Both the position numbers and the translations under genes were made by a program. Below, piece after piece: positions 29,448 to 32,802 of a stretch of 32,802 nt of DNA. Positions within the stretch are counted from its first letter, which is position 1, and each line of letters begins with the position of its first letter. The notes beneath the pieces were generated by a model. That model did not search any database, was not told the origin of the DNA, and was given only the letters and a program-made list of their open reading frames with translations. Source of the DNA: Clostridia bacterium (GTDB taxonomy: Bacteria; Bacillota; Clostridia; TANB77; CAG-508); NCBI GenBank assembly GCA_022798895.1, contig JAAWNJ010000014.1, positions 1 to 32,802 on the forward strand, read 5' to 3'.

Positions 29448-29720
29448 TTATACTAATTTTTTTACCTCTTCTATTTCAACTCCATTTTGTGTTATTCTTC
29501 CCTGTATTGAAATAAAGTTACCTTGTTGCAAATTTCGATAAATCCAATCTGCTATTTCGTCATAGGCATATCCTCTTACTATTTGTCCTTTTTCTATTTC
29601 TAAATCTAAAAGAACAATTGATGTATGCTTTTTACTTAAACTTTTTGTATTGGAGTTATATATAAACTTAAAATCTATTTTATTTTTGATAGTTCCACTT
29701 AAAAAACATAAATTTATCAT
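29448..29720 (-). CDS. Small OB-fold/SSB-like protein
   Basis: MINLCFLSGTIKNKIDFKFIYN...SIVLLDLEIEKGQIVRGYAYDEIADWIYRNLQQGNFISIQGRI resembles single-stranded DNA-binding OB folds. Confidence 0.6.
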   Translation of the reverse strand: MINLCFLSGTIKNKIDFKFIYNSNTKSLSKKHTSIVLLDLEIEKGQIVRGYAYDEIADWIYRNLQQGNFISIQGRITQNGVEIEEVKKLV

Positions 29721-29970
29721 AGTTTTACCTTTCCTCTATACTATAGCTTAATCTTTCTATTTTCTTCATCTATCTAATTTATCTTCTAAAATTAAAGCAT
29801 AAAATTTATATATTCTATTTTAAAATTAAAATCTACTAATATAAATTTCATTGATACCTATTTACCTAAAAAGTTTTATCAAACTTTCTTTGGAGGGAAT
29901 AAATCTCTTTAATACTAATACTTATCATGGAATATATTCCTTAAAATATATTATCTAGACTTAGCATTAG

Positions 29971-30110
29971 AGTGGACGGAAGGAATTGTTGGCATTGTTG
30001 TTGGTCGTAGTATTGTTGTTGCGATTAGACGTAGTGTTATTGCTGTTGTTGTAATTACCTCCCCTATTAACACAAGGGTTACTATTGCTACTATTCGTGT
30101 TAGTAGAATT
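29971..30110 (-). repeat. DGR template repeat (TR)
   Basis: Co-linear (offset +2010) with VR 31981-32120. 28 mismatches, 26 at T on + (template A on the coding strand). Located directly 3' of the RT gene. Confidence 0.95.
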
Positions 30111-30127
30111 TGATTTATCCCCATTTT

Positions 30128-31186
30128 TTATGGTATATAAAATAACTTTTGATTTAAATTATTTGTATCTGCTATCTTTATATATCCCATATGTCCACAT
30201 AAATACCTTTTGGCGTCTTTACTGCTCATCTTTCCTCTTTTTATATTGTATTCCATTTCTCTTATTTTCTTCTTTAGCTTTCTTTTTCCTCTATCTCGTA
30301 TCTTTAATCTATATTCATTAATTTTATAGCCACAAAAGTTAATCCCTTGTTTACTTTTAAAAATTTGTGTTTTTTCATTTAATTCTAGTTCTAAATTTTC
30401 TTCCAAAAACTCCTTTATTTTTCCTAAACACATTTTGGCTTCTTGTTTGTTTTTTACAAATAAGATAGAATCATCTAAATAGCGAAAATAGTATCTAATC
30501 CTTAACTCATGTTTTATATATTGATCTAACTCATTTAAATAAATATTGGCAAATAACTGTGAAGTATAATTTCCTATTGGTAATCCCTTTCTCTTTCTAT
30601 TTAACTCTTTTTTATTTAACATTGTTTGTTTTTCTTCTTGTGTACAATTAGAATAAATAATCTCTTGTAAAAGCCATAATACTTTCTTATCAGTTATCTT
30701 TCTTTTTAAAATATGAAATAAAATATCTTTATCAATATGATCAAAATATTTTCTAATATCCATTTTTAAAACATAGTATTCTTTCCAAGTATTTTTACAA
30801 TGTTTCATTGCTTTTTGCACATCTAAAGCTGCCTTGTGCATTCCTCTATTTTGAATGCAAGCATAAGTATGATAAATGAGACTTTTTTCAAAATATTCTT
30901 TTAAGAAATTGTCTACGACAAACCTATGCACAATTCTATCTATGTACCTACTTTTCTCTATTCTTCGTAATTTTGGTTCTGTTACATAAAATGTAGTATA
31001 TCCGCCATGTCTATATGTGCCAATTTTTAATCTCTCATATAACCACCAAATATATTCTTCTTGCTTTAGATTAAATAAAATTACTTCTTCTCGATAGCCT
31101 TTTCCTTTTCTACTTAACAAATGAGCTTTCATTAGATTTTCATAAGTTAATTTCTTATCAAACTCATTTCTTATCGTTTTTGGCAT
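30128..31186 (-). CDS. DGR reverse transcriptase
   Basis: KMDIRKYFDHID, KGLPIGNYTSQLFANIYLNELDQYIK (DGR-type SQ motif), YYFRYLDDSILFVKNK; adjacent TR/VR pair. Confidence 0.95.
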   Translation of the reverse strand: MPKTIRNEFDKKLTYENLMKAHLLSRKGKGYREEVILFNLKQEEYIWWLYERLKIGTYRHGGYTTFYVTEPKLRRIEKSRYIDRIVHRFVVDNFLKEYFEKSLIYHTYACIQNRGMHKAALDVQKAMKHCKNTWKEYYVLKMDIRKYFDHIDKDILFHILKRKITDKKVLWLLQEIIYSNCTQEEKQTMLNKKELNRKRKGLPIGNYTSQLFANIYLNELDQYIKHELRIRYYFRYLDDSILFVKNKQEAKMCLGKIKEFLEENLELELNEKTQIFKSKQGINFCGYKINEYRLKIRDRGKRKLKKKIREMEYNIKRGKMSSKDAKRYLCGHMGYIKIADTNNLNQKLFYIP

Positions 31187-31658
31187 AGTATTTAATTAGT
31201 CCTCCTAATATTTTTCCTATTTCTGTTATTTTACTTATTGCTATTTGAAATTTCTTCTCATCTATCCATTTATTCTTTAACATAATCCTTAAATAAATTC
31301 TCTGGCAATTTAGACTTACATCTATCTTATTCAAATAATTCATTTTATTTTTTTCTTTCACTTTCGGTATATATAGAGTATTTTCTAGCATCTCATACAT
31401 GGATACTTTATATTCATTACAATATACAATATATGCTACATCTAGCCTTGCCAACTTTTCCAAATAATATTCTATTCTTGTTTCTGGAATTCCTATTTTA
31501 CAAACTTCCTTTTTGAAACAAATACATTTTAGCCCTAGTTGTTTATTCAAAAAAACTGCATCTTTCCCTGTTGCTACATAAAATGGACCTAACTTTACAA
31601 ATACTATTTTTTCTTTATCTTTTTCCTTTAAAATTTCTAACATATTACTAAAACTCAT
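31164..31658 (-). CDS. DGR accessory protein: MutS domain I-like N-terminus with Avd-like C-terminal helices
   Basis: FVKLGPFYVATGKDAVFLNKQLGLKCICFKKEVCKIGIPETRIEYYLEKLARLDVAYIVYCNE resembles MutS domain I. The C-terminal ISKITEIGKILGGLIKYYAKN resembles the Avd last helix. Overlaps the RT start by 23 nt. Confidence 0.75.
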   Translation of the reverse strand: MSFSNMLEILKEKDKEKIVFVKLGPFYVATGKDAVFLNKQLGLKCICFKKEVCKIGIPETRIEYYLEKLARLDVAYIVYCNEYKVSMYEMLENTLYIPKVKEKNKMNYLNKIDVSLNCQRIYLRIMLKNKWIDEKKFQIAISKITEIGKILGGLIKYYAKNDKK

Positions 31659-31904
31659 CTTTTATTCACACCTTTCTAATTTTGGCGCATTTTCATGTCT
31701 GCAAGCAAAACTTGCAAACACGAAAAAAGCGCCATGCTAGTGGCGCCACGCTAGTGAAAAATTGAAATTTCTTTTCGTTTCACTCAAGACTTTTCAATTT
31801 TTCACTATTAGCGTATCTTCGATTCGCTATATATTCTTTTTAATTTGGAAAAACCTTTCCTTTTTTTCTTTTTCGATTTTACGTAAACCAGCATACAGTA
31901 TTTA

Positions 31905-31924
31905 CAATTGCCTTTCGGCAATTG
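31905..31924 (-). promoter_or_regulatory. Hairpin downstream of VR with GAAA tetraloop (candidate DGR target-recognition hairpin)
   Basis: Coding strand CAATTGCC-GAAA-GGCAATTG, perfect 8-bp stem, 56 nt past the VR 3' end. Confidence 0.55.
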
Positions 31925-31958
31925 CATAAGTTATCTGTAGTTCACTTCGTTCACACAG

Positions 31959-32802
31959 CTAACTTAACTTCAAAAACAAAAGTGGACGGAAGGAATAGCC
32001 GGCATTGCTGTAGGTCGTAGTGTCGTAGTAGCGACCAGACGTAGTGCTACCGCCGCCGCTGTAATAACCTCCCCTAGTAACACAAGGGCTACTAGAGCTA
32101 CTACTCGTGCGAGTGGAATGCTCTGTGCTCCACTCTATGCAATTAGAAGCCATATCATGGATATTACATACCTTATCTCCTGCTTTTCCTGTATTTAATT
32201 TGCTTGAATTTACTGATGTCTTGTTGGCATAATTACTGTTTCCACTGTATTTTTGTATGAATACTATTGCTGTATCCCAGCTATAACTATTTATCAAATC
32301 ACTTTCTACATAATTACTACTATACATTTCTCTTGCTTGTGTTGCTGCATTTGGTTGCGTTATATCTACCCATGCCACTTTATTTACTTGTGAATCTACT
32401 TTTCCATCACTTCCTTGACTTGCTTCATATCTTCCTAGGTAGTATCCACCGTTAGTCTTTGTCTTTGCGACAAAATCTCCTAGATTTTTAGCAGCGGTAT
32501 TTCCTGAATTACTAGTTAATTCTTGATAATAATTTGATATTGTTACTACTTGTGTATAATTATCTGCATTTTGCTGCAATGTTGGTGTTCCATTAGTAGT
32601 GTCAAATGTATATCTTCCTAAAGTGACAGTTGTTGTACTTCCATCTTTATTTTTTATCTCTCCTACTGGTATCCACACAAATTGATTTCCTTCTTCATCT
32701 TCTATTACGATTCCATCTTGTACTGCAGGCATTCCATCTCCATTATATGTGTATTCTACATTTCCTGTACCTCCATTTGGTACTACTTTAAAGCCTCCTG
32801 GA
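31959..32802 (-). CDS. DGR variable (target) protein, FGE-sulfatase/C-type-lectin-like domain; 5' end beyond the window
   Basis: Open frame continues to the window edge (PGGFKVVPNGGTGNVEYTYNGDGMPAVQDG...). NQFVWIPVG, GGYYLGRYEAS, NIHDMASNCIEWSTE, RGGYYSGGG, SFRPL motifs. VR encodes the C-terminus. Confidence 0.93.
   Translation of the reverse strand, partial: PGGFKVVPNGGTGNVEYTYNGDGMPAVQDGIVIEDEEGNQFVWIPVGEIKNKDGSTTTVTLGRYTFDTTNGTPTLQQNADNYTQVVTISNYYQELTSNSGNTAAKNLGDFVAKTKTNGGYYLGRYEASQGSDGKVDSQVNKVAWVDITQPNAATQAREMYSSNYVESDLINSYSWDTAIVFIQKYSGNSNYANKTSVNSSKLNTGKAGDKVCNIHDMASNCIEWSTEHSTRTSSSSSSPCVTRGGYYSGGGSTTSGRYYDTTTYSNAGYSFRPLLFLKLS
31981..32120 (-). repeat. DGR variable repeat (VR)
   Basis: C-terminal coding HSTRTSSSSSSPCVTRGGYYSGGGSTTSGRYYDTTTYSNAGYSFRPL; adenine-biased divergence from TR. 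Confidence 0.95.

Follow-up and report, generated by a model that had tools for sequence, protein, structure and literature searches.

The right-hand part of the window (the whole stretch of 32,802 nucleotides analysed here) carries a reverse transcriptase gene lying between two similar copies of a 140-nt repeat. We asked whether this locus is a genuine diversity-generating retroelement (DGR), whether it has rewritten its target, and which genes and RNAs belong to it. The features are as follows, in order of position.

29448..29720, minus strand: SSBL, an SSB-like OB-fold protein of 90 aa, the next gene after RT-14
29799..29972, minus strand: structured RNA, Rfam RF02921 (RT-14), directly 3' of the TR
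29971..30110, minus strand: template repeat (TR), in a 140-nt ungapped alignment with the VR
30128..31186, minus strand: DGR reverse transcriptase (RT), 352 aa, LPIGNYTSQ and YLDD intact
31164..31658, minus strand: fused accessory gene, 164 aa, MSL (MutS domain I) in residues 1-80 and Avd in residues 81-164
31879..31904, minus strand: post-VR hairpin (TAAATACTGTATGCTGGTTTACGTAA), resembling the hairpin directly after other targets' VRs
31905..31924, minus strand: perfect hairpin CAATTGCC-GAAA-GGCAATTG behind the VR, from sequence reading and fold
31928..31963, minus strand: dispersed palindromic repeat GTTAGCTGT...ACAGATAACTT, directly after the VR, altering the target's last codons
31959..32801, minus strand: 3' part of the target gene with its C-terminal variable domain, 280 aa up to the contig end
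31981..32120, minus strand: variable repeat (VR), differing from the TR at 26/55 A and 2/85 non-A positions

Realignment of the two repeats gave 28 differences over an ungapped 140 nt, 26 of them at template adenines; the repeat coordinates and difference counts of the preliminary description proved exact. The TR is composed of 55 A and 85 other bases, and the differences remain adenine-biased on realignment (26/55 versus 2/85; Fisher p 5.8e-11; binomial p 4e-9), with both non-A changes being T-to-C. Read in the target's frame the TR gives NSTNTNSSNSNPCVNRGGNYNN..., and in-frame translation of both repeats reproduced the reported recoding of Asn codons (10 AAT and 10 AAC in the TR; 19/20 altered in the VR). 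The 3' ends are distinct, as IMH* and IMH (TR ...CTCTAAT, VR ...CTTT), and the same contrast was found in nine relative loci. An adenine imprint was likewise seen at nine relative loci, one example differing at 26/56 A versus 0/84 non-A positions. Chance likeness or ordinary paralogue divergence was rejected as the source of the TR/VR resemblance on account of this adenine specificity.

Further VRs, as envisaged in the preliminary description, were found by a genome search in which the TR matched five other places, namely the window VR and four on other contigs. The genome (G000), of a gut-type Clostridia, is a draft MAG of 135 contigs (97.7% complete, 3.2% contamination), where C48 is the window contig and C129, C17, C84 and the like are others. 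The C129 target differs from the window TR at 23/55 A and 1/85 non-A positions, and the C48 and C129 VRs are identical to each other at 84/85 non-A positions while differing at 27/55 A positions. Just upstream of the VR the scaffold of the two targets is identical at only 588/679 positions (contrast with the VR non-A positions, p 3e-4), which argues again against ordinary paralogue divergence and indicates that both VRs were recently rewritten from one template. The C48/C129 pattern is, by all appearances, conversion of both VRs by one template and not shared ancestry. Both contigs stop within target genes. The VRs of C9a, C68 and C78b, with 12-14 non-A differences from the window TR, fit it in part and look like older rewriting events; the remaining paralogues do not fit. 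We rejected the idea that all ~20 paralogues are present targets of the window TR, the tight fit being confined to C48 and C129. Another paralogue, on C22 (L048, G000:C22), is matched best by a template from the related genome G306, that of its C38 DGR (29/54 A and 8/87 non-A differences, p 8e-9). No RT close to that of the C38 DGR was found in G000, and C22 thus seems to record a DGR that has been lost or exchanged.

The RT carries RVT_1 (Pfam), matches phrog_1423 (PHROG) and matches the solved reverse transcriptase 8ub7 over its full length (E 1.9e-38), an entry series that we take to be the BPP-1 DGR complex. Its catalytic YLDD is intact and not mutated, and LPIGNYTSQ is present. RT (30128-31186) and accessory gene (31164-31658) sit between VR and TR, as first described, in the order target, accessory, RT, TR, RT-14, SSBL. 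The earlier claim of past mutagenic retrohoming is well supported: two loci diverge from the one TR specifically at adenines, and this is backed by an intact DGR-type RT with its full-length 8ub7 match, by an Avd domain above the Pfam cut-off and by a structured RNA after the TR. Calling the element complete was slightly overstated, given that its parts are present but the contig stops inside the target and Avd lacks its first ~40 residues; the element also extends further than first described, to 29448, taking in the RT-14 RNA and the SSB-like gene. A prophage origin was rejected because the neighbours are chromosomal (YpeB, DNA polymerase III gamma/tau, phosphoglucomutase, EPSP synthase and a germination protein) and the phage records held no match for the accessory protein or SSBL. 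We consider it nearly certain that the locus is a genuine chromosomal DGR with the anatomy listed above, and the repeats, as sequences, indicate that it was active in the past and used recently.

The window end, which is the contig end, truncates the target gene, and ~20 further places in the genome are homologous to it. Full-length paralogues have a prepilin-like N-terminus (GITLVALVVTIVVLLILAGITI) and a Big_2 domain, and because of these the targets are likely to be surface-displayed proteins. For the FGE/CLec-type fold assigned in the preliminary description, the window copy matched no Pfam family at E<=0.001, and a PDB profile search with the target sequence returned no match; its paralogues reach PF03781 at E 0.0034-0.013 only, below the cut-off. 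An FGE/C-lectin fold is probable for the target but weakly supported, with no direct backing from the window copy.

Inverted repeats do occur behind the VR in the form of hairpins, and an insertion of the dispersed repeat separates the VR from the usual one: the TAAATACTGTATGCTGGTTTACGTAA hairpin is displaced ~75 nt from the window VR, whereas at other targets it adjoins the VR. The GTTAGCTGT...ACAGATAACTT palindrome was rejected as a conserved DGR signal because it recurs throughout the genome (9 copies, against 0 for a reversed-pattern control). One copy sits immediately behind the C17 VR as well.

The RNA following the TR scores 64.1 bits against the RF02921 model (gathering score 48.1). 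RT-14 was found in 13/13 relative loci scanned, and wherever the imprint located the TR in relatives, RT-14 begins at the 3' end of that TR. Within its 5' part, an alignment of 36 sequences showed pairing in 572/576 cells, with compensatory pairs. RT-14 is a known RNA motif, and its place is defined here: it begins where the DGR template repeat ends. A spacer next to the TR of BPP-1 recruits RT-Avd and primes cDNA (PMC12875486); by analogy, and judging from its position, RT-14 may be an RT-recruiting, priming spacer like BPP-1 Sp. In one relative (L101, G268:C20, 4868-6865) six tandem RT-14 units stand beside one DGR RT, with template-like sequence before at least three of the six.

A second DGR occurs in the same genome (L038, G000:C17, 4376-6661), with a plain Avd, a VR at the contig end and a DGR-type RT that is 44% identical to the window RT; an RT-14 scan at this DGR found none. 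Elsewhere in the genome there are five further RT-14 copies, each after a TR-like sequence and with no RT nearby. The template on C84 (L132), which lies among ordinary genes and is followed by RT-14, differs from the C17 VR at 9/33 A and 0/116 non-A positions, besides a 9-nt gap (p 5e-7). From this imprint, the C84 template evidently acts in trans on the C17 VR. Four more TR-like cassettes (L130 and L131 on C97, L133 on C18, L134 on C92) are each followed by RT-14 with no RT nearby; the C97a cassette contains inserted repeats, and those on C18 and C92 are A-poor and perhaps represent decayed or overwritten templates.

The accessory gene departs from its relatives, in which two separate neighbouring genes encode MSL (~140-170 aa) and Avd (~125 aa) and are followed by the RT. 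The window protein contains MutS_I (PF01624; 40.4 bits, cut-off 20.6) and bAvd (PF22296; 46.0 bits, cut-off 40), and a PHROG search also matched it to Avd; against the NCBIfam Avd model NF033474 it reached 51.6 bits and missed the cut-off of 80, its Avd N-terminus being absent. Compared with G306:C56 (L061; public record JAAWKD010000049), the window shows one clean ~295-bp deletion, with the junction between 31419 and 31418 joining MSL codon 80 in frame to Avd and both halves at ~89% protein identity to G306. By this alignment the accessory gene is evidently an in-frame fusion of MSL and Avd made by the ~295-bp deletion, and ~40 residues at the Avd N-terminus are consequently missing from the protein. 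We found no description of an MSL::Avd fusion in a literature search.

The fusion rests on one draft MAG assembly, and MSL and Avd could be separate in the real cell if the assembler had joined them wrongly, as might happen in a 135-contig draft with several repeated DGR-related regions and contigs that break inside target paralogues. Such an artefact is nonetheless very improbable, given that one relative matches both sides of the junction equally closely, with one clean break between them, and that a genome search found no other Avd of the window type, the C17 Avd being the only one besides.

The predicted model of the accessory protein combines a MutS-domain-I fold with three Avd helices (pLDDT 86, pTM 0.55), and its best Foldseek matches are all MutS (E 7e-5). 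Of the MutS Phe-x-Glu motif, the Phe is kept in 14/14 MSL-type sequences and the Glu in 0/14, V/I/L/Y taking its place; the window MSL part reads FYV (Phe26), and the genome's own MutS reads FYE. Tentatively, the MutS-I domain might hold mismatched TR-RNA:cDNA or cDNA:VR duplexes. We lean towards the view that the fused MSL::Avd protein still works.

A competing account, which we regard as doubtful, holds that the DGR was active until recently and is now decaying: the deletion would have killed accessory function, the repeat behind the VR would impair homing, and the imprint would be a young fossil. The loss of the Avd N-terminus in the fusion fits this account, as does the state of several relatives, whose RTs are broken (L096 lacks residues 170-314; L098 and L108 are in two frames) or, in L097 (G097:C24, 1120-3993), apparently split after residue 240 by a group II intron. 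G098 has another MSL::Avd fusion (L106, G098:C62, 2532-2954), joined at a different point, and because almost no RT is left there (28 residues, SSBL being kept) fusions may mark decay. The closest Avd of G306 has an in-frame TAG; the many TAG stops in the Avd matches of other relatives were rejected as interruptions and read as gene ends that the alignment had passed, the Avd ORFs ending there. Yet this same G306 DGR (L061/L090, G306:C56), interrupted in the same Avd region, keeps a perfect TR/VR imprint (26/56 A versus 0/84 non-A). In the window itself, the RT, TR and RT-14 are intact, the VR departs from the TR at only 2/85 non-A positions, the fusion is exactly in frame with halves ~89% identical to G306, and the accessory model folds well in both halves. 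These points speak against decay.

Downstream of RT-14, SSBL has a predicted model with an OB fold (pLDDT 90), for which the 50 best Foldseek matches are all SSB or PriB. A PF00436 search with the window SSBL gave no match, and the family matches 14/19 SSBL homologues at E<=0.1 (best 3.2e-8). Across 391 genomes of the order, SSBL lies <=4 kb from 96/114 MSL/Avd places, among the matches listed; of the SSBLs with no listed MSL/Avd neighbour, RT-14 adjoins 16/20 and an RT piece is near 11/20. On the strength of fold and position, we think SSBL is probably a true DGR part. It could instead be an unrelated small gene hitchhiking downstream of the DGR, a view helped by its function being read from fold and position only and by its failure to reach PF00436 in the window; we judge this improbable in light of the co-location at 96/114 places across the order (among the matches listed), which holds despite strong sequence divergence, and of the RT-14 found beside 16/20 SSBLs with no listed MSL/Avd neighbour. 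A literature search found no SSB-DGR link, although one may have been described elsewhere.

In the mechanism that we propose, the DGR RT, acting with an Avd-type partner, would copy the TR RNA with its trailing RT-14. Miscopied template adenines would give a mutated cDNA, and this cDNA would replace the C-terminal VR of surface-type proteins, at the adjoining target as well as in trans at one or more other loci. SSBL might coat the cDNA or the opened target. The machinery of this clade is larger than the textbook set, comprising MSL, Avd, RT, TR, the RT-14 RNA and a small SSB-like protein. It is conceivable, though we put it forward with reserve, that this Clostridia order has its own DGR subtype, characterized by a Glu-less MutS-domain-I protein and a dedicated SSB, by RT-14 templates that also act in trans from RT-less sites, and, here, by MSL and Avd merged into one working protein. 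The natural MSL::Avd fusion suggests that MSL and Avd act at the same place, and the SSB-like gene constantly present nearby points to a factor that handles cDNA; both bear on the roles of DGR accessories such as MSL and on the way in which mutated cDNA is shielded and brought to its target. The position of RT-14 directly behind the template provides a means of locating DGR templates, even ones remote from an RT.

The closest point of reference is the BPP-1-type DGR of a Bordetella phage, whose parts have been described (PMC12875486, PMC3240598). The window shares with it the TR/VR pair, adenine-specific change, a DGR RT and Avd, as well as a structured spacer beside the TR and, here with a dispersed repeat inserted in between, inverted repeats behind the VR. 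Unlike BPP-1, the window has its TR after the RT, is chromosomal and not phage-borne, carries an MSL::Avd fusion as its accessory and has an extra SSB-like gene. MSL (MutS-like, PF01624) is mentioned as a DGR accessory in PMC10053308. DGRs of that type and the window alike carry a MutS domain I protein in their operon; in relatives, MSL and Avd are encoded next to each other by separate genes, whereas the window encodes one fused 164-aa protein. The window copy of RF02921 and those of its relatives score above the Rfam gathering threshold. SSBL has in common with bacterial SSB/PriB (PF00436) the OB fold, and it differs from cellular SSB in its size (about 80-90 aa), in having no long C-terminal tail and in the fixed place of its gene beside DGR templates.
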